Shown here in pieces: positions 7,377 through 32,959 of a stretch of DNA of 64,000 nt (its first letter is position 1; the number at the start of each line of letters is the position of its first letter). Location of the stretch: the NCBI GenBank assembly GCA_030285985.1, contig CP127384.1, forward strand, positions 1,414,501-1,478,500, written 5' to 3'. This DNA comes from Aquidulcibacter paucihalophilus (GTDB lineage Bacteria > Pseudomonadota > Alphaproteobacteria > Caulobacterales > Caulobacteraceae). The notes under the pieces were generated by a model. That model was not told the DNA's origin. It made no database searches and saw only the letters and a list, made by a program, of their open reading frames with translations. The position numbers and the translations under genes are program-made.

Positions 7377-8774
7377 TTGAAAACGACGACGATCAGCGTG
7401 GGTCGTATCCGCCCGGTTGCGGTCCGGGCGAGCGTCGCCCTGTTCCTGGCGCTCTGCATCGGGATTTGCGCTGTCCTGCCTTCGCGGGCATCCGCGACCC
7501 AGGTGTCATCACCCGGCGTGCATGAGGGCGTGGCCTCCTGCGCTGGCTCGACCTGCCATGGCCGCCAGGCCCCCGACGGGGCCGTCGTGCGCCAGAACGA
7601 ACTGGTCAGCTGGCAGGACCCCAGCGGTCCGGGCGGATCGCACAGCCGCGCCTGGCGCACCCTGACCTATCCCCGTGCCCAGGCGATCACCCGCCGGCTG
7701 GGTCTGGGGCCGGCCCAGAACGCCCCGGCCTGTCTGGGTTGCCATGCCGAGCCGGCTGCCGCGCGGGGGGCCCGGTTCCAGGTTTCCGACGGCGTGGGCT
7801 GCGAGAGCTGCCACGGACCGTCGGGCGGCTGGATTGCCAGCCACTATACGGTGGGCGTCAGTCATGCGGCCAATGTGGCGCGGGGCATGACGCCGCTCGA
7901 GGATCCGGTCGTCCGGGCCAATGTCTGCCTCGACTGCCACTGGGGCAGCGACAGGCCCAACCAGTTCGTGACCCACGAGATGATGAGCGCCGGCCATCCG
8001 CGCCTGTCGTTCGAGCTGGAGCTGTTCACCGCCTTCCAGCAGCATCACGACGTTGACGCCGACTATGTGCAGCGCAAGGCGACGATGGATTCCGCCCGGC
8101 TGTGGGCCATCGGCCAAGCCGTGGCGCTGCAGCGGATCCTGACGGTCTATGGCGACTCCGGGCGGGCCGGGAATGGCGTCTTCCCCGAGTTCTATTTCTT
8201 CGACTGCCACAGCTGCCACCGCCCGATCTCGGACGAGCCGACCGCGCCGCTGCTGGTGGAGACCAATCCCGGGCGGCCGATTCCGCCGGGCATGCCGCCG
8301 TTCAATGACGAGAACATGATCATGCTGGCCGCCGCCGCCCGGACCGCGCCGGCGTCGCTGGCCCAGCGGTTCCAGGCCGACTCGCGCGCCTTCCACCAGG
8401 CCCTCGGCTCCGATCGCGCCGGGGCCGTCGAGGCGGCCCGGCGTCTCGCCGGAACGGCCGGCCAGTTGTCGGCCAGTTTCGCCTCCAGCCCGTTCAGCCG
8501 CGCCGACACCTTCGCCATCCTCGAGGATGTGCTGGGGGAGGCGCTGGCGCCGCGCTACACGGACTATTCCGGCGGCGCCCAGGCGGTCATGGCGGTCGAC
8601 ACCCTGCTGAACGCCCTCGTCGCCCAGGGGGAGATCGAGGCTGCGGCGGTAAGGGCGATGCGGCCGGATATTGATCGCGCCTATGCCGCTGTCCGCGACC
8701 CCAACCGCTACCGGCCGCAGGAATTCCGCCGCGCCATGGGCGGCGTCGCAACCGCCGTGAGGCGCGCACGATGA
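7377..8774 (+). CDS. pentahaem cytochrome c554-like protein
   Basis: A 465-residue exported multihaem protein. A signal peptide ends near ASA (about residue 37). Haem sites are at residues 55 (CAGSTCH, an unusual C-x4-C-H), 119 (CLGCH), 142 (CESCH), 184 (CLDCH) and 277 (CHSCH). The spacing and surrounding motifs, such as CESCHGPSGGWI and THEMMSAGHPRLSFELE, fit the cytochrome c554/NrfB-like group. The C-terminal 180 residues have no haem site and look helical. The start codon is TTG with a GCGGGGG site upstream; there is no ATG nearby. Its stop overlaps the next gene in ATGA, so it opens an operon of outer-membrane and cytochrome genes. The electron donor and acceptor are unknown; a role in electron transfer is inferred from the haem content. 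Confidence 0.85.
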   Translation: MKTTTISVGRIRPVAVRASVALFLALCIGICAVLPSRASATQVSSPGVHEGVASCAGSTCHGRQAPDGAVVRQNELVSWQDPSGPGGSHSRAWRTLTYPRAQAITRRLGLGPAQNAPACLGCHAEPAAARGARFQVSDGVGCESCHGPSGGWIASHYTVGVSHAANVARGMTPLEDPVVRANVCLDCHWGSDRPNQFVTHEMMSAGHPRLSFELELFTAFQQHHDVDADYVQRKATMDSARLWAIGQAVALQRILTVYGDSGRAGNGVFPEFYFFDCHSCHRPISDEPTAPLLVETNPGRPIPPGMPPFNDENMIMLAAAARTAPASLAQRFQADSRAFHQALGSDRAGAVEAARRLAGTAGQLSASFASSPFSRADTFAILEDVLGEALAPRYTDYSGGAQAVMAVDTLLNALVAQGEIEAAAVRAMRPDIDRAYAAVRDPNRYRPQEFRRAMGGVATAVRRAR

Positions 8775-10741
8775 GCAGGCGGGCGAGGGGTCTGGTTCTG
8801 GCGGCTGTGGCCAGCCTGCTGCTGGCCGGCTGCGGCGGCGGCGGATCCTCCACCGGCGGCGGTAGCGGAGGCGGCGGTGGTGGTGGCGGCGGTGGGAGCG
8901 GCGCCCTCTATGCCGTGCCTGCGGCCGAGGCCTTGTCGGTGTCGGATGTCGAAGGCGTGCTGGCTCGCGCCGTGGCCGAGGCCCGCGCGCGATCGCGGCC
9001 CGCCGTGATCGCTGTCACCGATCGGGTCGGCAATGTGCTGGCGGTCTATTCCATGACCGGCGCGCCGGCGACGATCACCCTGCGCCCCGGCGCGACGGTC
9101 GATGTCGACCTGCAGGGCGTGGTCGCACCGGCCGCGGCGGGGGCGATCGCCAAGGCCGTAACCGGGGCCTACCTGTCCTCCGGAGGCAACGCCTTTTCCA
9201 GCCGTACCGCCAGTATGATCGTGCAGCAGCATTTTCCGCCCGCCCCTTCGACGGTAGGGCTGGAAAGCGGGCCGCTGTTCGGGGTGCAGTTCAGCCAGCT
9301 GCCCTGTTCCGACATTTCCAGCCGGTTCGTCGCGGGCGGCGGACCGTCGGCCCTGATCGGACCGAAGCGGTCGCCGCTGGGTCTCGCGGCCGATCCCGGC
9401 GGTTTTCCGCTGTACAAGAACGGGGTGCTGGTCGGCGGGGTCGGGGTTATCGCTGAGGGCGATTACGGCTTTGATGTCAACGTTCTGGACGTCGATGCTG
9501 ACGTTGAGGAGCATATCGCCCTCGCCGCCGGCACGGGGCTGTCGCCGTCCGTGGACATCGTCGCGGACCGGGTCGCGGTGGACGGAACGACCCTGCGCTA
9601 CAGCGACGCCACGGCGGCCACGCTGATGAGCACGCCGGCCTCGGCGACGGCCTTCGGGAGCCTGCCGGTGGGGACGGGCGTGTTCACTCCGGTCGCCGGC
9701 TACTACGCCGGGCCGGGCGCGATCGCGGGCCAGGCCTATGGGACCGAGGCCTCCGGCGTGCGCAAGGCGACGGCGGGCGAGTTCAACAATGTCGATGCCT
9801 TCATCCTGACCGACGGGTCGGGCGGTGCCCGCTATCCGGTGCAGGGCGGTACGGATGTGGGCTCCGTCGGCGCGCCCCTGACTGCCGCCGAGACGCGCGC
9901 GGTGCTGGAGGAGGCCTTCACCATCATGAGCCGGGCGCGGGCCCAGATCCGTCGCCCACTGGACAGCCGCGCCCAGGTCTCGATCGCGGTGGTCGACACC
10001 CACGGCGTGACCCTCGGACTGGTGCGATCGCCCGACGCCCCGCTGTTCGGGATCGATGTGGCCGTGCAGAAGGCCCGCACCGCCAGCTTCCTGTCGAACC
10101 CTGCCGCCGCCGCCGATCTGTCGGGCGACCCGTCGGCGGATGTGAATGCCTTTGTCGGCCAGACCCGGACCTTCCTGTCGATGCCCACGGCCCTGACCGG
10201 GCAGACCGCGTTCAGTGTGCGCGCCGTCGGCAATCTGGCACGGCCCTATTTCCCCGACGGCGAGGTCGGTCCGACCAGCGGACCCTTGTCGCGACCGATC
10301 GCCATGTGGAGCCCGTTCTCGACGGGCCTGCAGACCGCCCTGATCCTCGCCAACCTCGGCCAGCACGTCGGCTTCGTCAGCGGCCTGGGGCCGGATACGG
10401 TGGCGCGTTGCACGGCCCTGCCGGATGCCGCGCCGGGGCGGAACCGGCTGCAAAACGGCCTGCAGATCTTCCCCGGCGGGGTGCCGATCTATCGTGGCAC
10501 GCGGTTGATCGGAGCGATCGGTGTGTCCGGCGACGGGATCGACCAGGACGACATGATCTCCTTCCTCGGTCTCCAGAACGCCGCGATCCGGGTGGGTGGC
10601 ATCAGTCAGGCCCCCGCTGCGAACCGGTCAGACCAGATCGTCGTCACCCATCCCGGCGGCTCGACCCGGTTGCGCTACGTCAGCTGTCCGTTCGCGCCCT
10701 TCCTGGATTCCTCGCAACAGAACGTCTGCAGTGCGCCGTGA
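8771..10741 (+). CDS. lipoprotein with two HbpS/GlcG (DUF336) domains
   Basis: A 656-residue predicted lipoprotein. The lipobox LLLAGC places the lipidated Cys at residue 21, followed by a Gly/Ser-only linker to about residue 48 that would hold the folded part away from the membrane. Two related domains follow. The first starts at LSVSDVEGVLARAVAEARA with AVIAVTDRVGNVLAVYS; the second, near residue 370, has LTAAETRAVLEEAFTIMSRA with SIAVVDTHGVTLGLVRSPDA. Both match the haem-binding HbpS/GlcG-like fold in style, and later segments carry FPGGVPIYRGTRLIGAIGVSGDG, a family hallmark. It overlaps the cytochrome upstream (ATGA) and the barrel gene downstream (TGATG), so all three are probably translated together. 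A surface or periplasmic haem-binding partner of the cytochromes is an inference. Confidence 0.75.
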   Translation: MSRRARGLVLAAVASLLLAGCGGGGSSTGGGSGGGGGGGGGGSGALYAVPAAEALSVSDVEGVLARAVAEARARSRPAVIAVTDRVGNVLAVYSMTGAPATITLRPGATVDVDLQGVVAPAAAGAIAKAVTGAYLSSGGNAFSSRTASMIVQQHFPPAPSTVGLESGPLFGVQFSQLPCSDISSRFVAGGGPSALIGPKRSPLGLAADPGGFPLYKNGVLVGGVGVIAEGDYGFDVNVLDVDADVEEHIALAAGTGLSPSVDIVADRVAVDGTTLRYSDATAATLMSTPASATAFGSLPVGTGVFTPVAGYYAGPGAIAGQAYGTEASGVRKATAGEFNNVDAFILTDGSGGARYPVQGGTDVGSVGAPLTAAETRAVLEEAFTIMSRARAQIRRPLDSRAQVSIAVVDTHGVTLGLVRSPDAPLFGIDVAVQKARTASFLSNPAAAADLSGDPSADVNAFVGQTRTFLSMPTALTGQTAFSVRAVGNLARPYFPDGEVGPTSGPLSRPIAMWSPFSTGLQTALILANLGQHVGFVSGLGPDTVARCTALPDAAPGRNRLQNGLQIFPGGVPIYRGTRLIGAIGVSGDGIDQDDMISFLGLQNAAIRVGGISQAPAANRSDQIVVTHPGGSTRLRYVSCPFAPFLDSSQQNVCSAP

Positions 10742-12573: not shown

Positions 12574-12580
12574 GGGGCGC

Positions 12581-15500
12581 ATGGGGACCTGGGGGGGCAA
12601 GCGGCTGGTAATCGGGGCGGTATCCGTCCTGATGATCCTCGTCGCCGGGTCTCCGGCCGCTGTGGTCGCTGACGATGACGAGGCTCCCGTCGCACGCGTC
12701 TATGTCGCCGCGCCGGCCGCGCCGCCCAGCCAGACCCCTGAACAGGCCGCCGCCAAGAGCGCCGGTTGCGTCAGCTGCCACAGTCCGGTGGACGCCGCGA
12801 GCATGCACGCCTCGCCGGCGGTCGTGCTGGGCTGCGTCGACTGTCACGGCGGCGACGCCACGGCCATGGCTCCGGCCGGCGCATCCAGGGATGCTCCTGA
12901 ATACAGCGCAGTACGCGATAGAGCTCATGTGCTGCCTCGCTATCCCGGGAGCTGGCATTTCCCCAGCTCGGCCAATCCCGAGCGGACCTACACCCTGCTC
13001 AACCGCGAGGCTCCCGAGTTCATTCGTTTCGTGAATCCCGGGGACTATCGGGTTGCGCGTCAGTCCTGCGGTAACTGCCACATGGAACTGATTGAAAGAG
13101 CAGAGCGATCCCTGATGGCGACGGGGGCGATGTTCTTCGGCGGCGCCTCGTACAACAACGGCATCCTGCCCTATAAAAACTACATCATCGGCGAGGCCTA
13201 TACGCCCGAAGGCGAGCCGGCGCGGCTGCTTTCCCCCGGCACGCCGCCCGGCACGGTGACGCTGGACGAGCAGCGGCGTGGTGCCCTGCCGGTCCTCTAT
13301 CCGATCCCGACCTGGCAGGTGACGCCCCCCGGGGACATCTTCCGGGTGTTCGAGCGCGGCGGACGCAACATCGCCACCCAGTTCCCCGAAATCGGCCTGC
13401 CCAGCCCGACGGGCCAGATCCAGCGACTTGAGGAACCGGGCCGTCCGGACTTCCGCCAGTCGTCGCGCGGACCGGGCACCGGCCTGCGCATCGCCGTGCC
13501 GGTCCTGAACATCCACAAGACCCGCCTGAACGACCCCTACACCTGGTTTATGGGCACCAATGACCAGCCGGGCGACTACCGCTCCTCCGGCTGCACCTCA
13601 TGCCACGTGGTCTACGCCAACGACCGCGAGCCGCGGCATAGCCTGGGCTATTCCCAGTTCGGGCGGGATGGCCAGACGGCGACCGTGGACCCGACCATCA
13701 ACCGCGAGGAATCGGGCCATCCGATCCGCCACGCCTTCAGTCGCGCCATCCCCACGTCCCAGTGCATGAACTGCCACATGCACCAGCCGAACATGTTCCT
13801 GAACAGCTACCTCGGCTACACGATGTGGGACTATGAGTCCGACGCGCCGACCATGTGGCCGGAGCGGCAGCGCTATCCGACCGCCGAGGAAATCCGCGCG
13901 GTTCTGGACCGCAATCCCGAGGGTGCCGCGCCGCGCGGCAACTGGGCCGATCTGGACTTCCTGCGCGCCGTCAACGACCTGAACCCGACCCTGCGCGACA
14001 CCCAGTTCGCCGACTATCACGGCCACGGCTGGAATTTCCGCGGCGTGTTCAAGCGTGATCGCGAAGGCAACCTGCTGGACGCGGAGGGGGCCATCGTCTC
14101 GCCGGACGATCCCGAGCGCTGGCGCCGGGAAGGGGAGGGCCAGTTCGTCCCGCCGGGGACCAATCCGGGCCGCACGGTCCACATGATGGACATCCACGCC
14201 GAGAAGGGCCTGCAGTGCGCCGACTGCCATTTCTCGCAGGACAGCCACGGCTCGGGCCTGATCATGGGCGAGGTGGCGGCGGCCGTGGAGATCGGCTGCA
14301 AGGACTGCCACGGCACCTCGCGGACCTACCCGACGCTGCGCACCTCCGGCCCGGCGGCGCCGCCCGAGGGGACGGACCTGACCCTGCTGCGCAACTCGGA
14401 CGGCCAGCGTCGCTTCGAATGGATCGAACGCGACAACCGCCGGGTGCTGATCCAGCGTTCGATCGTCGATCCGACCCTGGAGTGGGAGGTCGATCTGGTG
14501 CGCGACGCCGTTGACCGGGACAGCCCCGAGTTCAATCCGGCGGCGGCACGGGCCAAGCTGATGTCGGTTTCGCGGCCCGGCCAGGCCAGCTTCTCCTGGG
14601 GTCCGGGTGTCGCGACGACGGACCTGGCCCACGATGACGAGGAGATGGCCTGCTACAGCTGTCACACCTCCTGGACGCCGTCCTGCGGCGGCTGCCACCT
14701 GCCGGTCGAGGCCAACTGGCAGGCGACCAGCCACCGCGCCGAGGGCGGCACGACCCGCAACTACGCGACCTACAATCCGCAGGTGGCGCGCGACGACATG
14801 TTCCAGCTGGGCCGCCACGGAACCGCGCGTGGCGGGGTGATCGCCCCGGCCCGCTCGTCCTCGGCCCTGGTGCTGTCCTCGACCAATATCAACCGCGAGC
14901 GGATCTATGTGCAGCAGCCGCCGATCTCGGCGGTCGGCTTCTCGAGCCAGGCCTTCGCGCCGCATTTCCCGCACACGGTCCGGCGCACCGAGACCAAGAC
15001 CTGCACCGACTGTCACGTCTCCGAAGCCGAGGACAACAACGCCATCATGGCCCAGCTGCTCATGCTGGGGACCAACTCGGTCAATTTCGTCGGCATGAAT
15101 GCCTGGGTCGGGCTGGAGTCCGGTATCGAGGCGGTGCGGGTGACCGAGTGGGACGAGCCGCAGGCGGTGTTCGGCTCCTATCTGCAGCGCTACGCCTATC
15201 CCGACTTCTTCGCCCAGCACGTCGAGCGCAACGGGCGCGAGCTGATCAACTGGACGCGCGGCGAGGCCTTCGATCCGGAGGCCGGCGGCAGCGGGGATAC
15301 CCGATCCGTCGAGGAGATCGCCAATACCCTGCAGGGCACCGGGGGCGAGGCGCGCTGCCTGCAGCTGCGCGGGGAGTATATGTTCGTGGCCGAGGGCCGC
15401 GGCGGGTTCCGGGTCTATGATGTGGCCGCGATCGGCAACAAGGGCGTCTCGGATCGCATCCTGACCGCGCCCTTCTCGCCGCTCGGCAATGACACCCACG

Positions 15501-16513: not shown

Positions 16514-16515
16514 CG

Positions 16516-17385
16516 CTAGTGGTGGTGCGGTCCGGCCGTCCCGGCGCGTTCCTGCGCGAGATGCTTCATGAAGGCCTGCATCTTGTGCGTATAGCGGGCG
16601 AGGATCTTGTAGCGCTGCACCGCCGTGAAATGGCTGACCAGCTTGCGGCCGTTCCAGCGGTGGATGCCGAACGCCGGCGGCGCCTCGGCGATCATCGGCC
16701 GCTTGTCCGGGCGGTCCAGATTCATCGGCTTGAGGTCCAGCACCACCTGCGGGGCGGTTGAGGGACAGACCGTCAGCGTCGTGCCGGCCCATGAGGTGAC
16801 GATGGTGCGGTGGACGTGGCCGCACAGGGCGCCGACGACCTGACCGTGGCGCGAGACCACGTCGGTGAACCGCTGCACCCAGGGTTCGGCCGGGCCGATC
16901 GTCATCCACTCGATGCCGGTGTCGATAGGCGGGTGATGCAGGACCAGCAGGGTCGGCCGGTGCGGCGCCTCGGCGAGGCGGGCCTCCAGCCAGGCCGCCC
17001 GCTTCTCGCAGAAGCCGCCGCCATGGCGGCCTTCCTCGAGGGTGTCCACGACCACGATCCGCAGCGGATGGTCGTCGACGACATACTGGATGAAGCCGTC
17101 CTCCTGGGCCGTATCGGGGAAGACCTGACTGAAGTTGGCGCGGGTATCATGGTTGCCCATGCACATCAGGATGGGCAGGGAAAGCTGCTGGATTTCCTGA
17201 CGAAACCATTCGTACGACGCCACGTCGCCCTTGTCGGCGATGTCGCCGGTGATGACGATCAGGTCGGGCTTCGGGTCAAGCTTCGTCACCGCCTGGACCG
17301 TCTGGCGGAAGCGCTTCTTGTTCATCTCGAACCGGCTCTTCTGATCGAAGCCGATATGGATGTCGGTGATCTGAACGATCAACAT
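16516..17385 (-). CDS. CpdA-like class III cyclic-nucleotide phosphodiesterase
   Basis: A 289-residue calcineurin-fold metallophosphoesterase. The metal ligands appear in order: D-x-H in ITDIHIGF, GDIADKG, GNHDTR, the histidine in LVLHHPPIDTG and GHVHR near residue 206. This is the full GpdQ/CpdA signature, and the E. coli CpdA that hydrolyses cAMP has similar length (about 275). The C-terminal His-rich tail (HHH) is unusual. It starts 33 bp after the end of the adenylate cyclase gene with a GGGGGAAC ribosome site, so cyclase and phosphodiesterase form an operon. That makes cAMP the most likely substrate, although this fold also includes phosphodiester and 2',3'-cyclic phosphate enzymes. Confidence 0.85.
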   Translation of the reverse strand: MLIVQITDIHIGFDQKSRFEMNKKRFRQTVQAVTKLDPKPDLIVITGDIADKGDVASYEWFRQEIQQLSLPILMCMGNHDTRANFSQVFPDTAQEDGFIQYVVDDHPLRIVVVDTLEEGRHGGGFCEKRAAWLEARLAEAPHRPTLLVLHHPPIDTGIEWMTIGPAEPWVQRFTDVVSRHGQVVGALCGHVHRTIVTSWAGTTLTVCPSTAPQVVLDLKPMNLDRPDKRPMIAEAPPAFGIHRWNGRKLVSHFTAVQRYKILARYTHKMQAFMKHLAQERAGTAGPHHH

Positions 17386-21173: not shown

Positions 21174-21178
21174 GAGAG

Positions 21179-22122: not shown

Positions 22123-23465
<1,343 letters not shown>

Positions 23466-23481
<16 letters not shown>

Positions 23482-25322
23482 ACCGCCGCTATCCGTCGGG
23501 GCGGCGTGCCGAAGTTCGGACGCGGCGGACGCGGCGTCGGATGCGACGGCGCATGGAAGCTGTGGCAGGTTTCGCAATTCTCCGGTGCCGGCGTAGGCGA
23601 CTGTGCCGTCGTCTGACCGTGGCATTCCACGCACTCACTCACCGACGGGAGCAGCAGGTCGGTCGCTGAGCCCGATGTTGCCGCGGCATGGCACTGGGTA
23701 CAGGACGGCTGGCCCTGACGGTCGACGCGGTGCTCGCGGACGCTGTGATCAAACGCCCCGCGGCTGAGGAAGTCGCCGGGCAGGCGGACCGGGGTGAAGC
23801 GGATCGTCGGCGTCCGGAAGATGGTGTGGCAGTCGAAACAGGCACCGCGCGGGCCGAAGGCACCGCCCACGGTGTTGACCGCGCTGGCCCCCGAGGGCGA
23901 GCCGCCGACGCCGGGGCCGGCTGCGCCTGCCTCGCCAGGCCGTCTCCGGGCGGTGGCACCACCGGCGACAGGGCCGCGGCCCTGCCAGGCCATCAGGGCC
24001 GCGACCACCTGGCCCGGCTCGCCGTGCGGCAACTGGCGGACGCCGCCGGGAGTGGCGAACGACAGGGCATGGCAGCTGGCGCAGTCGCGCTCCATCTGGA
24101 TGGGCGCAAACCCCGTCTGGTCCGCATCGGGCCGGTGACAGCTGGCGCAGGTCAGGGCGGCCCCATAGCCGCGCCCGCCCAGGGTCTGGGCCATGCGCGC
24201 CGGGCCGCCGCCGGGCGACAGGTGCAGATCGTGGGGGAAGGTCAGGCCGGACGCCTCGCGCGGGCGGCTGTCGAGGGACACCCGGGTCAGACCGGCGGGG
24301 CCGGGCAGGGTGGGGCGGAAATTCGGATGGCGGGCCCAGGACGGCGCATCGGCCAGGTCGGTGTCCTTCAGCCGGTGGGTCAGGCCGGTATGGCACTGGA
24401 TGCAGGTCTGGGTGGGCGTCAGGGTCGGGATCGGCTCGGGCGGACGGCCCGCGACCGGGTTGGCGACATGTTCGACGTGGCAGCTGGCGCAGCGTTGCTC
24501 GGGCAGATTGAAGGCGCGCCGGACCCAGGCGGTGGCCTGGCCGGTGATGCCGGCCGGAGGCGGTGCGCCCCAGAGAATCCGGCCGCGAGGCGCGTGGTCC
24601 CTGACGAACGACAGCGTGTCCGGCGAGCCGGCTTGGCGCACAGAGGTCGCCGCGGCGGCCATCATGGCGGGGGTCTGGTCGCCGGCGTGGCAGGTCTTGC
24701 AGGAGGCATCGGTGACCGCGACGAAGGCTTCCTGGTGGCAGGACTGGCAGTCGTCCTCGAGGAAGGCGTGCGCCGAGGAGAGGGGGCCGGTCGACCACTG
24801 CTGGTCCGGGTCGATCCGGGCCGTCAGGTGGCCGTGGAACGCGGCCAGCGGCCAGAGCAGGCAGAGGGCGACGATGCCCAGCCCGAGGGTCCATGCGATG
24901 CGACGGCGCCCGAAAATCCGGGCCTTGGGTATGACGCCGCCGGCCGGAACGCCCGAGGCGGAGTCGCCTTCCGCCGGCTCGGCGGTGGCGAGGTTGATCA
25001 GGATGCGGCCGCCGTCGCCGTGCGACAGCGTCAGGATGTGATCGCCGAAGGTCAGACGCGGGGCGCGGCTGACGTCGATGTCGGTGCGAGTGACGAACCG
25101 GCCGTCGACGCCGAACGGCTCGCGTCCGGCCGAGACGACGCTCACCTGTCCGGGCCCCGTCAGGGTCAGGGTGGCGTGGTGCAGGCTGACCGCCAGGTCG
25201 GGCAGACGGATCTCGCAGTCCGCGCCGCGTCCGATGCGTGCGACGTCGGTCGGAAGGACCTTCTCGCGGACGATTTCGGCCCCGCTGACGCGGCGTGTCA
25301 CCTGGCGAAGGACAAGGGTCAT
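23466..25322 (-). CDS. FHA domain - TM helix - decahaem cytochrome c fusion
   Basis: A 618-residue fusion protein. Residues 1-110 form an FHA domain: GR at 31-32 (IGRGADCEIRL) and the S-x2-H pair at 46-49 (SLHH), the elements that bind phosphothreonine. A basic stretch and a membrane helix at about 141-163 lead to a periplasmic part with ten CxxCH sites at residues 192, 208, 278, 307, 392, 414, 495, 541, 564 and 583. A Gly/Ala/Arg-rich haem-free loop separates 414 and 495, and the tail is Pro-rich. So the FHA domain faces the cytoplasm and the decahaem the periplasm. The start at 25322, seven bases after the cytochrome b stop, is preferred; ATG 25358 would overlap that gene. It is third in the operon after the FAD/CNB/Fe-S and cytochrome b genes. 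Confidence 0.88.
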
Positions 25323-25329
25323 CGGGCCA

Positions 25330-26202
25330 TCACCAGTAGATGAAGACGCTGAAGACATGGGCGGTGATCGCGGCGATGAGCGCGATGGTGGTCGGCACGT
25401 GGACCGCCAGCCAGACGCTCAGCCAGGCCCGGATCTGCAGGTGGCGACGGACCTGGGCGAGGGCGGCGGCCTTGCGCTGGAGCAGCTCCTCGATCCGGTC
25501 GAGCATCTGCAGTTGGACGTCCGTCGCCTGGCGACGCAGGCCACTCAGGCGTGACAGGGCGCGTCGGTTGCCGCAGCCCCCGCGTCCGCCCGACAGCCGC
25601 CGCCACAGGTGGCCGCCGACCCGGCTTTCGTCGAGCGACATCTGTACCACCCGCGCCTGCGCCTCGGACAGCGGCTGTGCGGCATCGTTGATCTGCCGGT
25701 CCAGCGCCTTGAGCGTCTCCAGCATCTGCTTCTGGGTCGTCTCGCCGCGGTTGCGGCTGAGGTAGCGCGGGAGGATGGCGTAGACGGTGATGCCGAACAG
25801 GCCGGAGACGACGACCAGAACCATCAGGCCGTAGGCCAGGGTGTGGACGTTCCAGCCGAACTGGAAGCCCGAATGCAGGGTCGCGACCACCATGACGGCC
25901 AGGCCCAGATAGACGTGGGCCGACACCCAGGCCTTCAGCGACCAGTCGCCCGAAGTTATGGCGCGCTTTCGCAGGCCCAGCAGCGTCAGCCAGAGCACCA
26001 GCAGCGCGGCGACGGTGCCGGCCACATAGCCGAAGACGCTGCCGCCGTTCGGCCGAGGTTCGGCGTCCATCAAAAAATAGGCCGCGATGGCGATCACACA
26101 GAGGGCACCCGCCCGCCAGGCCCAGCGAAAATTGCGGTAACCCAGGAAGCCGTCGTGCTGGCCGGGATTGGAGCGTTCGCCTGTTTTCGCTGTCTTCGCC
26201 AA
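25330..26202 (-). CDS. b-type cytochrome membrane subunit with coiled-coil loop
   Basis: A 290-residue integral membrane protein. Helices lie at about 28-45, 56-77, 92-110, 120-143 and 260-288. Histidines in the helices, His96 (AHVYLGLAVM), His110 (TLHSGF), His120 and the late pair His268 (VHVPTT) and His282 (AHVFSVFIYW), are placed as in cytochrome b561-like bis-histidine haem binding. A roughly 110-residue soluble loop at 148-258 with heptad-like Leu/Ala/Arg stretches separates helix 4 from helix 5; it also holds a Gly/Arg/Cys patch. The start codon is TTG (26200-26202), four bases after the oxidoreductase stop. By context it would move electrons through the inner membrane, from the quinone pool or the Fe-S protein to the decahaem encoded next. 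This role is inferred. Confidence 0.75.
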   Translation of the reverse strand: MAKTAKTGERSNPGQHDGFLGYRNFRWAWRAGALCVIAIAAYFLMDAEPRPNGGSVFGYVAGTVAALLVLWLTLLGLRKRAITSGDWSLKAWVSAHVYLGLAVMVVATLHSGFQFGWNVHTLAYGLMVLVVVSGLFGITVYAILPRYLSRNRGETTQKQMLETLKALDRQINDAAQPLSEAQARVVQMSLDESRVGGHLWRRLSGGRGGCGNRRALSRLSGLRRQATDVQLQMLDRIEELLQRKAAALAQVRRHLQIRAWLSVWLAVHVPTTIALIAAITAHVFSVFIYW

Positions 26203-26206
26203 GGGT

Positions 26207-28657
26207 CTAGTCGCCCCTGTTCATGCGTTTGACGGTCAGGAACTCTTCGGGCGAAACCCGGATCGCCGCCCCGGTCGGACAGGCGCGCACGCAGGCCGGG
26301 CCGCCCGCCTTGCCGATACACATGTCGCATTTGATGGCGACCTTGGGCGGTTCGGCGCCCTTGGCCTTGTTCTTCGCACGCCAGGCCTTGTCGGGCTCGC
26401 CCGGCCCGGGTCCGACACCGAACAGCAGCCAGGAGATCAGGTCCGGCTTCTTCGGCGGCCGCGAGTCCATGCGGATCACGTCATAGGGACAGTTCCGCTG
26501 GCAGTTGCCGCAGCCGATGCAGGTCTCGTCGATAAAGACCTCTCCGTCCGGCCCGCGATGGATCGCATTGGGCGGGCAGTCGGTCATGCAGTACGGATGT
26601 TCGCAGTGCCGGCACGAGGTCGGCACGTGCAGATGGGCGTAGGTTCGACCGGCCTCGCGATCCAGCCGCGACAGGCCGTCGTGAACGTCGGCGCAGGCCT
26701 TCTCGCAATTGTCGCAACCGATGCAGAGGGTTTCGTCGATCAGAAGGACGTCGGTGGCCTCGCCGATCCCCTGGTCTACCAGGAAGTCGGCCACGGCGCT
26801 GTACATGTCGACGACGTCGCCGAACTTGCCCTTCTGCTCCTCGATATAGCCGTTGACCTTGCGACGGTCGGCCATGTCGGCGCGGAGTTTCTCCTCCAAC
26901 TCGGGCTTGCGCTTCAGCAGGGCGCGGAAGCGATCGCCATCCAGTCTGACGACTTCGGAGCGGATCGCGGCCTGGACCGTGGCGCTGCGCCGGCCGCCGT
27001 CGACCAGCGCCATCTCCCCGACGTAGGAGCCCGCCGGCAGATAGGACAGGAAGACCGGCTTCCCGCCGATCTCCTTCTCGACGACCATGCTGCCCGAGCG
27101 GACGACAAAGATGTCGTAGCCGTCCTCGCCCTCGCGGATGATCGCTTCGCCGGTCTTCACCTGAAGGATTTCCGCCGTTTCCAGCACATCCGTCAGATCG
27201 GCGGGCGTCAGGCCCGAGCCGAACATCTGCAGCAACTGGCGCTCGGTGGTGATGCGGTTGACCGTGTCGCGCGCCTCCTTGACCGAGGCCATCAGGCGCA
27301 GGGCCGCGATGCGCGGAATCTCGAGCAGGATTGTGGGCTCGGCCGCCCGCACGGTGGCCCCCCGGGGGCGACCGGAGATGAGGCCGACCTCGCCGACGAT
27401 CGATCCCGTCGGGATCGGGACGGTCATCCGCCTCTTGCCGGCACCGACCTCGACCTCGACCGAACCGGAGGCGATCCCGAACAGCGAGGAGCCGACGGAA
27501 TTGCGCTTGAAGATGACGGCGCCCGGGTTGAAGGCGCGCACGTCTGAATCGAGCAGGAATTCCCGCATCTGAAGCGGCGACAGGCCGCGCAGGATTTCGA
27601 TCTCCTGGCGCAGGAACTCCAGCCACTGGGCGACTGACCGGTTGCCGGGCAGTCCTTTGAGCCGGGCTTCCAGAATGGGTTCGTCGGCCGGCTTCAGATC
27701 GACAGCACCGCCGATGTATTCGACGACGTCATAGCCCTGGTTGATGCAGTGTTTGATCAGCGGATAGCCGGCCAGGGCCCCGATCACATAGATGCCGGGC
27801 ACGGTACTTTCGAACGTCGGCGACAGTTTGGGGAAGGCCTCGCGCGCGGCGCTGGTGAACTCCAGCCCGATCGACTCCACGAATTTGCGCGGCGGGGCCG
27901 AGCCCAGTCGGGCGATGACCCGGTCGCACTGGAATCGGGTCGCGCCTTCCGGGGTGTCGACGGTGATCCAGCCCGGCTCGATCAGGGTCGTTTCTGCCGT
28001 GGTCAGCAGGGTGATGTGACCCGCTTCCTGCGCCGCCAGAAGGGCCTTGGCATTGGCCTCCTTGGCCCGTGCGAAGTCGGCACCGCGGTTGACGAGGGTG
28101 ACCGTATTGCCTTGCGCCCGGTCGGCGATGAGGCCCAGCGCGTTCTCGATGCCCGCATCGCCGCCGCCGACGACGCAGATGTGTTCGTCGACATATTCGG
28201 CGGGGTCGTCGAGCTGGTACTGGACGTGGGAGAGGCCGCCGCCCTCGCAGGACATGAGGTTCGGGTTGCCCTGGGTGCCGATGGCCAGGACGATCGTCTC
28301 GGCGCGGACCACGGAGCCGTCGGACAGGGCGATGCTGAAATTGCCCCTGGTGCCCGTGATGGATTTCACCTCGGCGTGGTAGCGGACTTTGACCTTGTGC
28401 TTCGCCGCCTCGTTCGACCAGGTGTCGAGTATGGTCTCGCGCTTGCCGGGCTCGAAACTGACATCGGCGCGCACGACCAGCTGGCTGGGCGTGGCCATGA
28501 TGTGTTTGCCGCGCTGGTAGCGGAATATGGTGTCCGACAGGTGGTCCGACTTCTCGAGCAGTACGTGGCTCACGCCGCGCGCAGCCGCGTGCGCGGCCGC
28601 ACTCAGGCCGGCGGGCCCAGAGCCCAAGATGGCGATCCGATGGACCCCCTCCACCAC
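26207..28657 (-). CDS. FAD/NAD(P) oxidoreductase with two cyclic-nucleotide domains and four [4Fe-4S] motifs
   Basis: An 816-residue cytoplasmic multidomain protein. Residues 5-330 are a thioredoxin-reductase-like flavoprotein with AILGSGPAGLSAAAHA for FAD and ICVVGGGDAGIENAL for NAD(P). It lacks a redox CxxC and so resembles YpdA/Bdr. Two cyclic-nucleotide-binding domains follow at about 365-470 (cassette VGEVGLISGRPRGATV) and 490-600 (VGEMALVDGGRRSATV). The second keeps the Glu and Arg-Ser that bind cAMP phosphate in CRP. From residue 645 there is an NrfC/PhsB-type ferredoxin region with CIGCDNCEKAC, CRHCEHPYCMTDCP, CIGCGNCQRNCP and a CDMC...CVRACP set. The start is GTG 28655-28657 after GGGGGG; a second GTG is next in frame. 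It heads the operon with the cytochrome b and FHA-decahaem genes. It probably feeds electrons from NAD(P)H, with cAMP control, but no activity has been shown here. Confidence 0.88.
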   Translation of the reverse strand: MVEGVHRIAILGSGPAGLSAAAHAAARGVSHVLLEKSDHLSDTIFRYQRGKHIMATPSQLVVRADVSFEPGKRETILDTWSNEAAKHKVKVRYHAEVKSITGTRGNFSIALSDGSVVRAETIVLAIGTQGNPNLMSCEGGGLSHVQYQLDDPAEYVDEHICVVGGGDAGIENALGLIADRAQGNTVTLVNRGADFARAKEANAKALLAAQEAGHITLLTTAETTLIEPGWITVDTPEGATRFQCDRVIARLGSAPPRKFVESIGLEFTSAAREAFPKLSPTFESTVPGIYVIGALAGYPLIKHCINQGYDVVEYIGGAVDLKPADEPILEARLKGLPGNRSVAQWLEFLRQEIEILRGLSPLQMREFLLDSDVRAFNPGAVIFKRNSVGSSLFGIASGSVEVEVGAGKRRMTVPIPTGSIVGEVGLISGRPRGATVRAAEPTILLEIPRIAALRLMASVKEARDTVNRITTERQLLQMFGSGLTPADLTDVLETAEILQVKTGEAIIREGEDGYDIFVVRSGSMVVEKEIGGKPVFLSYLPAGSYVGEMALVDGGRRSATVQAAIRSEVVRLDGDRFRALLKRKPELEEKLRADMADRRKVNGYIEEQKGKFGDVVDMYSAVADFLVDQGIGEATDVLLIDETLCIGCDNCEKACADVHDGLSRLDREAGRTYAHLHVPTSCRHCEHPYCMTDCPPNAIHRGPDGEVFIDETCIGCGNCQRNCPYDVIRMDSRPPKKPDLISWLLFGVGPGPGEPDKAWRAKNKAKGAEPPKVAIKCDMCIGKAGGPACVRACPTGAAIRVSPEEFLTVKRMNRGD

Positions 28658-28780: not shown

Positions 28781-30760
28781 ATGAGCGCGGAAATCGGCCA
28801 GCTGGCGCTGATCCTCGCCTTCATGCTCGGACTGGTCCAGGGGGTTGCTCCCCTGCTGGGCGCGCACCGCGGCGATCGCGTTCTCATGTCCCTCGGACGG
28901 GCCTCGGCCCTGCTGCAGATGGTCTTTGTCGTCCTGGCCTTCGGGGCTCTGGCCACGGCCTATGTGACGATGGACTTCTCCGTCGAACTGGTCGCCAAAC
29001 ACAGTCACAGCACCCAGCCGCTGCCCTATCGGATCGCGGCCACCTGGGGGAGCCATGAGGGCTCAATGCTGCTGTGGGTGCTGATTCTCGCCCTGCACGG
29101 CGGTGCCATCGCCTTCTTCGGACGCACGCTGCGCGAGACGCTGCAGGCCCGGGTGCTGGCGGTTCAGGGGATGCTCAGCGCGGCCTTCCTCGGCTTCTGC
29201 CTGTTCACCTCCAACCCGTTCTCCCGGCTGAATCCGATCCCGCTGGACGGGACCGAGCTGAACCCGCTGTTGCAGGACCCCGGCCTGGTGATGCACCCGC
29301 CGCTCCTCTACCTCGGCTATGTCGGCTTTTCGGTCGCCTTCTCCTTTGCCGTCGCCGCCCTGATCGAGGGCCGGGTTGATGCGGCCTGGGCGCGCTGGGT
29401 CCGTCCATGGGTCTTGTCGGCCTGGATTTCGCTGACCGTCGGCATCGCCCTGGGCAGCTGGTGGGCCTATTATGAGCTCGGCTGGGGCGGCTGGTGGTTC
29501 TGGGACCCGGTCGAGAACGCCTCGCTGATGCCGTGGCTGATGGGCACGGCGCTGCTGCATTCGGCCCTTGTGCTCGAAAAGCGCGGTGCCCTGATCAGCT
29601 GGACCATCCTGCTGGCCATCCTGACCTTCTCGCTCAGCATGATCGGCACCTTCCTGGTCCGGTCCGGGGTCCTGACCAGCGTGCACGCCTTTGCCGTCGA
29701 TCCCGAGCGGGGTGCCTATATTCTGGTCTTCATCCTGATCGCCACCGGTTCGGCGCTCGGCCTCTATGCCTGGCGCGCGCCGGCGATGCGGACCGGGGCC
29801 TTGTTCTCGCCCCTGTCGCGCGAGGCGGGGATCACCGTGAACAACCTGTTCCTGCTGGCGGCCACCGCCACCGTCTTCCTCGGCACCTTCTATCCGGTGT
29901 TCATCGATGTGCTGAACGGCGACAAGATCTCGGTCGGGCCGCCCTACTACGCCATGACCTTCGCCCCGCTGTTCGTCCCCCTGCTGGTGCTGGTGGCCTT
30001 CGGGCCGATGCTCAACTGGAAGCGCGATACAGCGCGGGCGGTGCTGATGCGGCTCCGCTGGCCGATCGCTGTCACAACCATCGCGGCGGGCGTCGGGGTT
30101 GTGGCCTTCGGTATCGCGAAGGTCGGTGCGGCGCTGGGCATCGCGCTCGGCGTCTGGCTGATCGCGGCCGCCTTCATGCTTCTGGCCCGGCGCTGGGGCA
30201 TCGGCCGCAAGGGGGCAGAGACCGGACGACTGATCCGCACCACGCCACTGGCTTTCTGGGCCGTTGCGGTGGCCCACGCCGGCCTGGGTGTCACCACCAT
30301 TGGCGTCACGGCCATGACCGCCTGGACCGTGAGCGAGGTCGTGACCATGGTCCCGGGCCAGACCATCGAGTTCGCCGGCCGGCGCGTCACCCTGGATGCG
30401 CTCGGGCCCGGGACGGGGCCAAATTACCAGGCGGACCAGGCCCGGTTCCGCATCGAGGGCGGCGGGCAGCCGTTCCTGATGCTGTCCGAGAAGCGTTTCT
30501 ATCCGTCCAGCCAGACCCAGACCACCGAAGCGGGGATCCGCGGCGAGGCGATGGGCAATCTCTATATTTCCGTCGGTGAGAGCGCGACCCTCGGCGGTGC
30601 CACCGTGCGGCTCTGGTGGCATCCCCTGGTCGGCTGGATCTGGGGCGGGGCCCTGATCATGGCCTTCGGTGGCGTCCTGTCGCTGTCCGACCGCCGTACC
30701 CGGCTTGGCATGCCTGTCCGCAAGGCCGCACCGGCCAAGGCAGGGAAGGCGGCGGCATGA
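28781..30760 (+). CDS. ccmF: cytochrome c haem lyase subunit CcmF/NrfE
   Basis: A 659-residue polytopic membrane protein with about 14-15 helices. The WWD haem-handling motif is intact as GWGGWWFWDPVENASLMPWL at about residues 232-251. Conserved histidines around it include TWGSHEGSMLLWVL and VMHPPLLYLGYVGFSVAFSFA-type segments. The later GTFYPVFIDVLNGDKISVGPPYY region is typical of CcmF. It attaches haem to CxxCH apocytochromes on the periplasmic side together with CcmH/I. It opens a four-gene set, each overlapping the next by ATGA, and is divergent from the oxidoreductase operon. It could be the cell's only CcmF or a second copy dedicated to the nearby multihaems (NrfE-like); this cannot be decided from the window. 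Confidence 0.95.
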   Translation: MSAEIGQLALILAFMLGLVQGVAPLLGAHRGDRVLMSLGRASALLQMVFVVLAFGALATAYVTMDFSVELVAKHSHSTQPLPYRIAATWGSHEGSMLLWVLILALHGGAIAFFGRTLRETLQARVLAVQGMLSAAFLGFCLFTSNPFSRLNPIPLDGTELNPLLQDPGLVMHPPLLYLGYVGFSVAFSFAVAALIEGRVDAAWARWVRPWVLSAWISLTVGIALGSWWAYYELGWGGWWFWDPVENASLMPWLMGTALLHSALVLEKRGALISWTILLAILTFSLSMIGTFLVRSGVLTSVHAFAVDPERGAYILVFILIATGSALGLYAWRAPAMRTGALFSPLSREAGITVNNLFLLAATATVFLGTFYPVFIDVLNGDKISVGPPYYAMTFAPLFVPLLVLVAFGPMLNWKRDTARAVLMRLRWPIAVTTIAAGVGVVAFGIAKVGAALGIALGVWLIAAAFMLLARRWGIGRKGAETGRLIRTTPLAFWAVAVAHAGLGVTTIGVTAMTAWTVSEVVTMVPGQTIEFAGRRVTLDALGPGTGPNYQADQARFRIEGGGQPFLMLSEKRFYPSSQTQTTEAGIRGEAMGNLYISVGESATLGGATVRLWWHPLVGWIWGGALIMAFGGVLSLSDRRTRLGMPVRKAAPAKAGKAAA

Positions 30761-31293
30761 GGCGGCTGGCCTTCATCGTTCCCATCGTGCTGTTCCTGAT
30801 GGTCGCGGCAGCCCTCGGTCTGGGCCTGCGCCGTGACCCCAGCATCCTGCCTTCGATGCTGATCGACCGGCCGATCCCGACCTTCGACCTGCCGGGCCTG
30901 ACGCCCGAGGACACCGTGGGGCTGGCCTCCTCGGACTTCACCGGCAAGCCGGTGCTTCTGAACGTCTTCGCCTCCTGGTGCGTCGCCTGCGTGATCGAGC
31001 ATCCGATGCTGCTGCGCCTCCAGTCCCAGGGCGTGACCATCCATGGACTGGACTGGAAGGACGAGCCCGCCGACGGGGCCGCGTGGCTCGCCCAGCGCGG
31101 CAATCCCTACACCCTGATCGGTTCGGACCCGCGCGGCCGCACCGGCATCGACTTCGGCGTCACCGGCGCGCCCGAGACCTTCGTCATCGACGGGCACGGC
31201 CGGGTTCGCTACCGCCACGTCGGCCCGATCACCCCGGAGGTCTGGACGGAGACGCTGCAGCCGATGCTGGCTCGACTGGAGAACGAGACATGA
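30757..31293 (+). CDS. ccmG: thiol:disulfide oxidoreductase CcmG/DsbE
   Basis: A 178-residue membrane-anchored thioredoxin-fold protein. An N-terminal helix spans about 5-23. The redox site WCVAC, in VFASWCVACVIEHP, sits near residue 75. The cis-proline equivalent lies in GVTGAPETFVIDGHG, and the family-typical GLDWKDEP precedes it. It reduces the apocytochrome CxxCH cysteines (with CcmH) so that haem can be attached. I chose ATG 30757, which overlaps the ccmF stop by ATGA and starts directly before the membrane anchor; an upstream in-frame start would run through ccmF. Length matches the family (about 180). Confidence 0.95.
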   Translation: MRRLAFIVPIVLFLMVAAALGLGLRRDPSILPSMLIDRPIPTFDLPGLTPEDTVGLASSDFTGKPVLLNVFASWCVACVIEHPMLLRLQSQGVTIHGLDWKDEPADGAAWLAQRGNPYTLIGSDPRGRTGIDFGVTGAPETFVIDGHGRVRYRHVGPITPEVWTETLQPMLARLENET

Positions 31294-31763
31294 AACGTTT
31301 CGTCCTCGGCCTGTTCTGCGCCCTGTTGATCGCCGGACCCGTTGCGGCCGTGCTGCCGGAAGAACAGCTGGCCGATCCGGTGCTCGAGGCGCGGGCGCGG
31401 GCGATCAGTCAGGAACTGCGCTGCGTCGTCTGCCAGAACCAGTCAATCGACGACTCGGACGCGCCGCTCGCCGCCGACCTGAGGGCCATTGTGCGGGAGC
31501 GGCTGTCAGCCGGGGACACCGACGCGGAGGTGATGGCCTATATCGTCGACCGGTACGGCAATTTCGTCCTGCTCAAGCCGCCGCTGGACCTCGAGACCAT
31601 CCTGCTGTGGAGCGCGCCGCTGCTGGTGCTGATCCCCGGCGGCCTCGGCCTTGCTCTCTATCTGAGACGTCGCAGCCGCGCCGGCGGCGCCGATCCCGCG
31701 CCACTGTCGGCCGAGGAGCGCCGCGCGCTCGCAGACATTCTGAAAACCGGTGACGCGCCATGA
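31290..31763 (+). CDS. ccmH: cytochrome c maturation protein CcmH (NrfF-like)
   Basis: A 157-residue periplasmic, membrane-anchored protein. A signal peptide ends near PVAA (residue 19). The redox motif ELRCVVCQNQSIDDSDAPLA is the signature LRCxxCQNxSIxxSxA. A following helix with DADLRA-type and MAYIVDRYGNFVLLKPP sequence and a C-terminal transmembrane helix (LLWSAPLLVLIPGGLGLALYL) complete the CcmH layout. It keeps apocytochrome cysteines reduced and hands them to CcmF. Start ATG 31290 overlaps the ccmG stop by ATGA. The short form, without a fused TPR part, fits the separate ccmI gene downstream. Confidence 0.95.
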   Translation: MKRFVLGLFCALLIAGPVAAVLPEEQLADPVLEARARAISQELRCVVCQNQSIDDSDAPLAADLRAIVRERLSAGDTDAEVMAYIVDRYGNFVLLKPPLDLETILLWSAPLLVLIPGGLGLALYLRRRSRAGGADPAPLSAEERRALADILKTGDAP

Positions 31764-32959
31764 TCCTCTGGATTGTCCTGACCCTGATGATCGCCCTGGC
31801 CGTGGTCGGGCTGGCCATACCGCTGATCCGTCCGGGCGGCGTGCTGGACCGACGGACCACTTCCGCCGAGGTGCTCAAGGCGCAGCTGGCCGATCTCGAC
31901 CGGCAGGCCGAGGCGGGCACGGCCCCGGCGGAGGACATTGCGGCCCTGCGTCTGGAGGTCGAGCGTCGCGCCCTGGCTGAGGGAGTCGAGGCGACGCCCA
32001 CCGGCCGGCCTTTGGGTGAGAAGGCCCTGATGCGACTGGCATTGGGCCTCGCAGCGGTCGTGGCCCTGGGCGGGGCCGGTCTGTACGCCCTTCTGGGACG
32101 GCCTGATCTTCCCGGCGCGGGCCCTCGCAGCGCAGCCATGGCCGCGGCTCCGGCGGATGCGGCGCATGACGGCGCGGACGTCCAGGCCATGATCGGCCAG
32201 CTCGAAACCCAGCTCAGGCAAACGCCGGAGGACGTCAACGGCTGGCGGCTGCTCGGCTGGTCCTATTTCCAGACCGGCCGGTTCGCCGATGCGGCTGAGG
32301 CCTATGGTCGTGCGGCGACGCTGGAGCCGGCAAACGCCGAGCATTTCTCGGCCCAGGGCGAGGCCCTCGTTCAGGTCGGAGGCGGGCAGGTGACGCCGGC
32401 GGCCCTGACCGCCTTCCGCGGTGCATTGCGTGCGGACCCGCAGGATCCCCGCGCCCGCTATTTCATAGCCGTCGAGATGGACCAGCGCGGCGAGCGCGAG
32501 GCGGCGATGACGGCCTGGATCGACCTGATCAATTCGGCCCCGGCCGGCGCGCCCTGGGCGGCCGAGGTCCGCACCTTCGTCGAGGATCTGGCGCGTGAGC
32601 GCGGTCAGGACATCTCCAGCCGCCTGCGGCCCGCGCCGGCGGGATCTGCGGCTCCGGCGGCGGTTCCGCCCGGGATCCCCGGACCGACAGCGGCCCAGGT
32701 CGCCGAGGCCGGTTCGATGTCCGAGGCGGACCGACAGGCGATGATCCAGGGCATGGTCGGGGGGCTCGAAGAGCGGCTCCGGACCTCGCCGCGGGATCGC
32801 GACGGCTGGGTGCGGCTGATGCGGGCGCGGATGGTGCTGGGTGACGCGGCCGCGGCGACGACGGCATATCGCAACGCGATGCGCGCCTTCACCGGGTCTC
32901 CGACCGAGCAGGCCGCCCTGACCGAGGCGGCGCGCGGGCTGCGCGTACCGGGCGCCTGA
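31760..32959 (+). CDS. ccmI: cytochrome c maturation TPR protein CcmI
   Basis: A 399-residue apocytochrome chaperone. Two membrane helices (about 3-22 and 91-110) flank a cytoplasmic leucine-zipper-like loop with STAEVLKAQLADLDRQ-type sequence. The periplasmic part contains TPR helices, e.g. WRLLGWSYFQTGRFADAAEAYGRA and a second set near residue 345 (VRLMRARMVLGDAAAATTAY). CcmI binds the C-terminus of apocytochromes c and presents them to CcmF/CcmH. It overlaps ccmH by ATGA and ends the ccmFGHI unit. The four-gene order F-G-H-I without ccmE differs from the usual alphaproteobacterial cycHJKL order (I-E-F-H). Confidence 0.92.
   Translation: MILWIVLTLMIALAVVGLAIPLIRPGGVLDRRTTSAEVLKAQLADLDRQAEAGTAPAEDIAALRLEVERRALAEGVEATPTGRPLGEKALMRLALGLAAVVALGGAGLYALLGRPDLPGAGPRSAAMAAAPADAAHDGADVQAMIGQLETQLRQTPEDVNGWRLLGWSYFQTGRFADAAEAYGRAATLEPANAEHFSAQGEALVQVGGGQVTPAALTAFRGALRADPQDPRARYFIAVEMDQRGEREAAMTAWIDLINSAPAGAPWAAEVRTFVEDLARERGQDISSRLRPAPAGSAAPAAVPPGIPGPTAAQVAEAGSMSEADRQAMIQGMVGGLEERLRTSPRDRDGWVRLMRARMVLGDAAAATTAYRNAMRAFTGSPTEQAALTEAARGLRVPGA

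Follow-up and report, generated by a model that had tools for sequence, protein, structure and literature searches.

Genes and conserved sites of the locus

The 64,000-nucleotide stretch of Aquidulcibacter paucihalophilus DNA analysed here (contig CP127384.1, positions 1,414,501 to 1,478,500; hereafter the window) lies inside a host genome of 3.10 Mb in one contig, and holds between its positions 7377 and 32959 a locus for multihaem cytochromes and associated redox and cyclic-nucleotide proteins (Table 1). We divide its core into two sets. The outer set runs forward as pentaC, HbpS2, barrel and decaLVIVD, with neighbours that share 1–4 bases or stand 7 bases apart; the inner set, on the minus strand, consists of CNBFAD, cytb and FHAdeca, with a gap of 4 bases between the first two genes and an overlap of 29 bases between the last two. 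Judged from sequence, the whole resembles an undescribed envelope electron route, whose genes are co-inherited across many bacteria of soil and water.

An initial annotation, made from the letters of the sequence, had placed here three cytochromes with 5, 10 and 10 haem sites, a barrel, an HbpS-type lipoprotein, a cytochrome b, an enzyme combining cyclic-nucleotide-binding (CNB), FAD and iron–sulphur (Fe-S) domains, a CHASE2 cyclase, a phosphodiesterase (PDE) and ccmFGHI, and translation and domain searches find all of them in their assigned places. The searches match HbpS-like, LVIVD, FHA, CHASE2 plus class III cyclase and calcineurin-type phosphoesterase domains, and also two cNMP-binding domains, pyridine-nucleotide oxidoreductase, 4Fe-4S, CcmF and CcmH. 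By the same searches, the ccmI product is a CcmH/CycH-type TPR protein and the product of 30757–31293, named CcmG by its position, matches redoxin/AhpC-TSA.

The haem sites are real. The DNA of the window contains 26 CxxCH matches against 3.1 expected, a count reached by none of 100 shuffles, and all but two of these matches fall in the three cytochromes. On translation, pentaC has four CxxCH sites and one Cx4CH site, while decaLVIVD and FHAdeca have ten CxxCH sites each, 25 sites in all. With truncated reads excluded from the alignments, the five sites of pentaC are kept in 13 of 13 aligned relatives and the ten of decaLVIVD in 21 of 21; in FHAdeca all 20 haem cysteines and 10 haem histidines are kept in 70 of 70. 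The last count leaves out five of 75 rows, L047 (530 residues, 7 sites) and L079, L089, L094 and L096 (no frame read); L089 displays ten sites on a separate reading. The Gly-Arg and the His of the FHA domains are likewise kept in 70 of 70, and, read by eye, FHAdeca seems to be without the Asn of classical phosphothreonine readers. Among solved structures, decaLVIVD has no sequence match and FHAdeca is matched in its FHA domain only. As many as 7373 of 8000 scored proteins match decaLVIVD at E ≤ 1e-10, an upper-end guess that includes other proteins.

CNBFAD, of which the window copy is 96% identical to its Brevundimonas denitrificans counterpart, joins a YpdA-like flavin part, a tandem pair of CNB domains that aligns along the regulatory subunits of protein kinase A (PKA), and a HycB-like four-cluster ferredoxin part. 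Its conservation was read from 102 distinct sequences spanning at least 760 residues, with identity down to 42–45%. PF00027 matches with 116 bits in two stretches, and both carry the phosphate-binding cassette G-E...R-x-x-[TS]: the Gly-Glu and the Arg are kept in 102 of 102 sequences, as is a Thr or Ser at the next position, and the Ala that precedes it is less strict (95 and 99 of 102). All 16 Fe-S cluster cysteines are kept in 102 of 102, and among the six flavin and NAD(P)H glycines the only change is at one position, which is G-to-A in 14. We conclude that selection has constrained both cyclic-nucleotide sites no less strictly than the redox centres; a cAMP-contacting role of the cassette residues is known from PKA and CRP. 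All 25 NCBIfam models among the best 25 of 120 fall short of their cut-offs with CNBFAD, and its identification as a YpdA bacillithiol-disulfide reductase was rejected (TIGR04018, 134 bits against a cut-off of 339.9). At least 571 relatives at E ≤ 1e-3 are present among the matches listed (pattern hits, one genome collection), again an upper-end guess, as other proteins are included. The neighbouring cytb, with five hydrophobic segments and six near-invariant histidines, matches Pfam only weakly (20.7 bits against a cut-off of 30.1).

The product of barrel is predicted to be of the outer-membrane type because of its signal segment, its C-terminal residue and the position of its gene. It matches no Pfam or NCBIfam family, and a profile of 23 sequences finds no PDB entry at E ≤ 10. 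Its last residue is aromatic in 22 of 23 homologue rows, or 21 of 22 once L020 and L021, which are one gene, are merged; the remaining row, L018, has a broken frame. HbpS2 scores above the cut-off for HbpS-like domains (PF03928, 87 bits against 25), and haem binding by it is putative; a lipobox stands at the signal in seven of 16 full-length homologue rows, and more distant homologues are without it. By hydropathy, CNBFAD has no membrane segment, cytb has five, FHAdeca has one behind its FHA domain, and each outer-set protein has one N-terminal segment, a pattern that fits the electron route proposed below.

Table 1. Features of the multihaem locus, in window coordinates.
Feature	Position	Strand	Basis or remark
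pentaC, exported pentahaem cytochrome, cytochrome c554-like	7377..8774	+	PF13435 42 bits; true start maybe later
HbpS2, lipoprotein with HbpS-like domains	8771..10741	+	PF03928, 3 stretches; lipobox LLAGC
barrel, exported, predicted outer-membrane type	10738 (GTG) or 10741 (ATG)..12573	+	aromatic C-terminus, N-terminal hydrophobic segment
decaLVIVD, exported decahaem cytochrome with C-terminal LVIVD-repeat region	12581..16507	+	LVIVD 59 bits; outer-set marker
PDE, calcineurin-type phosphodiesterase, SpdA/CpdA-like	16516..17385	-	under both cut-offs
CHASE2-type membrane adenylate cyclase	17419..19704	-	domain search
TPR protein with N-terminal hydrophobic segment	19776..21173	+	true start probably later
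FecR-domain protein	21149..22102	+	domain search
NADP-specific glutamate dehydrogenase	22123..23481	+	PRK09414 724 bits, cut-off 536
FHAdeca: FHA domain, one membrane segment (154-172), ten-haem part	23466..25358	-	motifs, hydropathy
cytb: five-segment membrane protein	25330..26202	-	near-invariant His 16, 96, 110, 120, 268, 282
CNBFAD: YpdA-like FAD/NAD(P)H domain, two CNB domains, four [4Fe-4S] motifs	26207..28657	-	inner-set marker
ccmFGHI, cytochrome c maturation	28781..32959	+	TIGR00353 above cut-off

Co-inheritance and gene order of the two sets

We took CNBFAD as the marker of the inner set and decaLVIVD as that of the outer set. The E thresholds for CNBFAD were 1e-20 in relatives, 1e-150 in the class and family samples and 1e-120 in the phylum sample, and for decaLVIVD 1e-20, 1e-100 and 1e-30 respectively. 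Among the 61 nearest relatives, CNBFAD occurs in six and decaLVIVD in five, all five common to both. The class sample of 190 genomes gives 17 and 11, with all 11 inside the 17, and the phylum sample of 249 genomes gives 8 and 4, with all 4 inside the 8 (two of these four had already been counted in the class sample). In the family of genome G204 (119 genomes), 40 carry CNBFAD, 41 decaLVIVD and 40 both; the exception, G528, is 67% complete and is decaLVIVD-only at the CNBFAD threshold of 1e-150. When the samples are pooled, 54 of 55 distinct decaLVIVD genomes carry CNBFAD. The initial annotation had named a co-occurrence survey as the check on its proposal, and genes that do not travel together as one possible refutation; the two sets do travel together, even when unlinked.

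Because half of the 40 family pairs are not neighbours (20 lie within 15 kb, 13 farther apart on the same contig and seven on different contigs), this co-inheritance is not mere adjacency. A survey of the best 80 named CNBFAD loci with 10-kb flanks gives a cytb match in 77 and an FHAdeca match in 75. In 34 of these loci decaLVIVD lies within the flank; of the remaining 46, 31 had their whole genome searched, and all 31 carry it elsewhere.

Of the 11 genomes in the class sample that carry both markers, eight (G219, G185, G152, G181, G089, G146, G126 and G216) have the two sets joined in one co-directional run in the order CNBFAD-cytb-FHAdeca-HbpS2-barrel-decaLVIVD, with a small exported protein after FHAdeca in some; the barrel frame of G219 was assigned by position alone, and the CNBFAD frame of G146 was placed from the marker search. 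G040 reads, in one direction, CNBFAD-cytb-FHAdeca-pentaC-glutamate dehydrogenase-HbpS2-barrel-decaLVIVD, and G204 shares the convergent order of the window. Since the sets are inherited together when unlinked and are joined in single runs elsewhere, they look like one system.

The cyclic-nucleotide enzymes form a backward pair between the two sets, with a spacing of 33 bases, and had been described as the locus's own cAMP enzymes. The CHASE2 sensor (171 bits) and class III cyclase domain (74 bits) both exceed their cut-offs, and the cyclase has adenine-type Lys/Asp residues, judged by eye. The association with the inner set stood up: a same-strand PDE match follows FHAdeca within 600 bases in 51 of the 69 loci whose downstream sequence extends for 1.5 kb or more, and the genes run in one direction as cyclase-PDE-CNBFAD-cytb-FHAdeca in L023 and as CNBFAD-cytb-FHAdeca-cyclase-PDE in L049 (Caulobacter sp.). 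In G056 the cyclase and PDE stand ahead of CNBFAD. The assignment to cAMP fared less well, the PDE falling under the cut-offs of both the SpdA model (2',3'-cyclic; the best model, 164 of 400 bits) and the CpdA model (cAMP; 110 of 225 bits).

The forward-strand genes between the sets, for the TPR, FecR-domain and NADP-type glutamate dehydrogenase proteins, had gone unmentioned in the initial annotation. FecR is matched in four of the 80 loci and the TPR protein in three; the TPR gene stands beside FecR and the CHASE2 cyclase in some relatives, and the FecR-domain protein is possibly a sensor partner of the cyclase. A glutamate dehydrogenase match of > 45% identity occurs in 25 of 118 loci (some genomes being present twice, e.g. 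as L015 and L026), where it is convergent with FHAdeca, forms part of the run itself (L021), or stands upstream either of CNBFAD or, immediately, of pentaC (L144, with the inner set 670 kb off, and L150, with the inner set outside the stretch read). Its recurrence beside either set suggests a metabolic link, perhaps the supply of NADPH. The ccmFGHI genes, next on the forward strand beyond the inner set, had also been counted as belonging to the locus. A ccmF match is found in just 26 of the 80 loci, some of them clipped, which does not bear this out, and ccmFGHI is probably the cell's general cytochrome c maturation set.

A putative electron route and its alternatives

We think it probable that the products of the locus form a single co-inherited machine, gated by a cyclic nucleotide, which carries electrons between the cytoplasmic NAD(P)H pool and the outer membrane, with outward flow the likeliest direction. 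The topology, carrier order, direction, gating, acceptor, surface location and outer-membrane crossing that we infer would be as follows. NAD(P)H would reduce the FAD of CNBFAD, whose four [4Fe-4S] clusters would relay the electrons to the b haems in cytb; from there they would pass to the ten-haem periplasmic part of FHAdeca and on to pentaC, the probable periplasmic link. This would deliver them to the barrel, HbpS2 and decaLVIVD set at the outer membrane and so to an external acceptor; candidates are Fe(III), a shuttle of flavin or humic type, and a metalloid oxyanion. A cyclic nucleotide, for whose synthesis and breakdown many lineages encode enzymes nearby, would bind the two domains resembling those of PKA regulatory subunits between the flavin and Fe-S parts, and would thereby gate electron entry at CNBFAD.

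To a more specific proposition we give somewhat less than an even chance: that this is a widespread and undescribed electron export system of aerobic Alphaproteobacteria, in which a PKA-like pair of sites acts directly on a NAD(P)H-flavin-Fe-S enzyme, so that gating by the second messenger of the flow into a 25-haem trans-envelope wire takes place in the protein itself, and glutamate dehydrogenase may supply the NADPH. Extracellular electron transfer has been studied mostly in a few metal-respiring genera. The set is frequent among bacteria known as aerobic heterotrophs, being present in about one third of the 119-genome sample of one family. Should it export electrons, then large, everyday lineages of soil and water own an outlet that is undescribed in the literature searched. 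The system also allows one to test directly whether a second messenger can gate an electron wire. Where literature on extracellular electron transfer was searched jointly with cyclic-nucleotide-binding domains, the latter term was absent from the matches listed.

Several observations weigh against the proposed route. Ten of 65 distinct CNBFAD genomes (G017, G085, G112, G120, G164, G179, G248, G274, G385 and G386) have no convincing decaLVIVD (E 0.001), which indicates that CNBFAD can occur without it. G017, the one CNBFAD carrier among the nearest relatives that is not shared, is of the same genus, is 97% complete in 230 contigs and has its inner set on a contig of 3.3 kb. In G120 and G164 a different partner set takes the place of the decaLVIVD set, and the CNBFAD of G179 is without cytochrome neighbours. 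The locus of G085 is interrupted by a contig end, and G386 shows just a weak partial decaLVIVD match, with HbpS2 and barrel present and the contig stopping there; in an eleventh genome, G067, decaLVIVD is seen just as a contig-edge fragment. pentaC lies outside all eight joined runs, being in the stretch for four (L105, L112, L119 and L122), and G237 reads barrel-decaLVIVD-CNBFAD-pentaC, with no cytb or FHAdeca match on its 10-kb contig. The Fisher p of 5e-31 for the family table overstates the strength of association, the genomes being related, and the correlation of inner and outer distance matrices (r 0.90, 33 loci) is one that common descent alone would yield. A crude strand-pattern count for the barrel falls inside the shuffle range (60 windows; mean 38.5, standard deviation 11.6, maximum 73). 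A cyclase match of at least 40% identity occurs in just six of the 80 loci, and the PDE stays under the cut-offs of the models for both kinds of nucleotide. Scans for FNR and CRP boxes reveal no persuasive promoter site; the FNR-type box count is 16 against a shuffle mean of 7.0, reached by one of 100 shuffles, and nearly all of the sites are intragenic.

The locus is alike in logic to MtrCAB, PioAB and MtoAB, which combine multihaem cytochrome(s) with an outer-membrane barrel, as this locus is predicted to do. It had been proposed that the parts are nevertheless unlike those of MtrABC and PioABC, and that the set is not one already described. Both statements agree with what we find. The DmsE/MtrA model TIGR03508 gives 25.7 bits with FHAdeca and 20.8 bits with pentaC against a cut-off of 192.2, the OmcA/MtrC-family surface decahaem model PF22113 gives 20.4 bits against 30, and by sequence (Pfam, NCBIfam, PDB) the barrel shows no match to the MtrB/PioB family. 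Electrons would enter here not through CymA but through a flavo-Fe-S protein that carries cyclic-nucleotide domains and is without a membrane segment. Pio and Mto operons appear as porin-cytochrome conduits in PMC10654088. Searches of open-licence PMC papers gave no account of the present set.

The Geobacter cluster extHIJKLMNOPQS (selenite/tellurite) has a porin-like protein, pentahaem ExtKL, large ExtM and a cytochrome b, and the gene list in the accessible part of its description contains no CNB-FAD-Fe-S or FHA-decahaem protein (PMC5877670); ext clusters are also described in PMC6148476. The best NCBIfam match of decaLVIVD is ExtM, far under its cut-off (NF040943, 73.7 bits against 800). 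ExtKL carries selenocysteine, and pentaC has no ExtKL match at E ≤ 0.01. Membership of the Mtr, Ext, YpdA, CpdA and SpdA families was rejected, every model tested staying under its cut-off. CNBFAD resembles the PKA regulatory subunit in its two consecutive CNB domains, with cassettes in register, and differs in that the pair is flanked by a YpdA-like flavin domain on one side and a HycB-like 4x[4Fe-4S] domain on the other. The four-cluster ferredoxin region is like that of AegA/YgfT and of HycB/NrfC/DmsB-type ferredoxin subunits. AegA/YgfT too join this region to a flavin domain; none of these families is known to have cyclic-nucleotide domains.

The same machine might run in reverse, drawing electrons from a donor outside the cell, for instance Fe(II), and delivering them to quinone or NAD(P)+ inside, which we consider unlikely. 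FHA-decahaem relatives in Gallionella (P0148, P0171 and P0173), Rhodocyclaceae (P0188) and Magnetococcales speak for such uptake. The Gallionella proteins are 46–50% identical to a Magnetococcales FHA-decahaem near a CNBFAD gene, and presumably correspond to cluster 403 of the Gallionellaceae pangenome, a 'Forkhead-associated protein' with 10 haem motifs that is present in 27 of 87 iron-oxidiser genomes and is placed under 'Other' in Table 1 of that paper; in the accessible main text the term occurs once, with no role or gene set given (PMC10734462). Against uptake, decaLVIVD finds no match in G274 or G385, both of them Magnetococcales, and the best 80 named loci come from Caulobacterales, Sphingomonadales, other Alphaproteobacteria or unnamed bacteria. 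The named groups are mainly aerobic heterotrophs. Moreover, NAD(P)+ reduction by Fe(II) requires an energy input, and no energy-coupling device is seen in the run.

We attach a similarly low probability to a chain that ends in the periplasm, with decaLVIVD as a periplasmic reductase and the barrel as an unrelated substrate porin. The N-terminus of decaLVIVD is of signal type, with no lipobox pattern there in 24 rows (some truncated, two of one gene), and its cytochrome part best matches ExtM, a protein reported in both membranes and the periplasm (PMC5877670), all of which is compatible with a periplasmic end. Against this, barrel and decaLVIVD are adjacent wherever the loci read extend far enough, mostly alongside HbpS2. 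LVIVD-repeat propellers are, in addition, usual on surface proteins.

A role in iron or haem acquisition, by Fe(III) reduction or by passing electrons to the HbpS-like protein rather than in respiration, seems still more doubtful: HbpS-like domains exceed the cut-off in the window and in one distant relative of the run, which speaks for this role, whereas HbpS2 has only a single conserved His (14 of 15). That the sets are two independent cytochrome operons, neighbours by chance, is suggested by their opposite strands in the window and their separation by 1.7 Mb in G056, and is scarcely credible given their co-inheritance when unlinked and the single joined runs elsewhere, which already contradict it.

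Neighbouring genes, variant sets and plasmid copies

The partner set that replaces the decaLVIVD set in G120 and G164 (L114 12419–18519, L115 2347–7306) comprises pentahaem-like protein(s), a 5-haem C554/NapC-like protein and a protein of 535–538 residues, the L114 version of which has no Pfam match. Its 5-haem protein in L114 gives the only ExtKL match, a weak one (27 of 250 bits). In the joined runs, the small exported-looking protein between FHAdeca and HbpS2 has 148–219 residues (L112 8076–8603, L105, L107 and L109); its hosts are distant alphaproteobacteria, and the single one tested has no Pfam match. A second CNBFAD copy, in another class, lies in L140 (G248; about 8.5 kb) without an FHA-decahaem match and no more than about 5 kb from a gene resembling the CHASE2 cyclase.

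Immediately upstream of pentaC are the type II secretion pseudopilin genes gspJ and gspK (window 5468–7260); in G029 no gspK match adjoins pentaC. Type II secretion was considered as a surface export route, and the host genome has three secretin genes, none of them inside the window. An Rfam search of the window gave no match, its composition gave no sign of a horizontal island (G+C content being even at 0.64–0.69), and a sigma-70 and terminator scan of 7200–27000 gave nothing exceeding shuffles. Adjoining the locus is a nitrogen-assimilation stretch with an ammonium transporter and both glutamate synthase subunits (39912–48130). Farther on, at 51298–62535, are in sequence an aldehyde dehydrogenase, a thiamine pyrophosphate enzyme, a CoA-transferase III, an HpcH aldolase, a TonB receptor, ThuA and a pyrroloquinoline quinone-propeller dehydrogenase, which together look like a substrate-use cluster.

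In Sphingobium herbicidovorans both sets lie on a 959-kb plasmid, where the existing annotation gives cytochrome, heme-binding, hypothetical, metallophosphoesterase and cyclic nucleotide-binding proteins only; barrel, decaLVIVD and CNBFAD were verified there by sequence, and the others were assigned from order and annotation. decaLVIVD is found on large plasmids in 13 records, 12 of Sphingobium and one of Sphingopyxis (L149 and L150 are among them); the gene order was read in two of the 13, and two are typed as conjugative.

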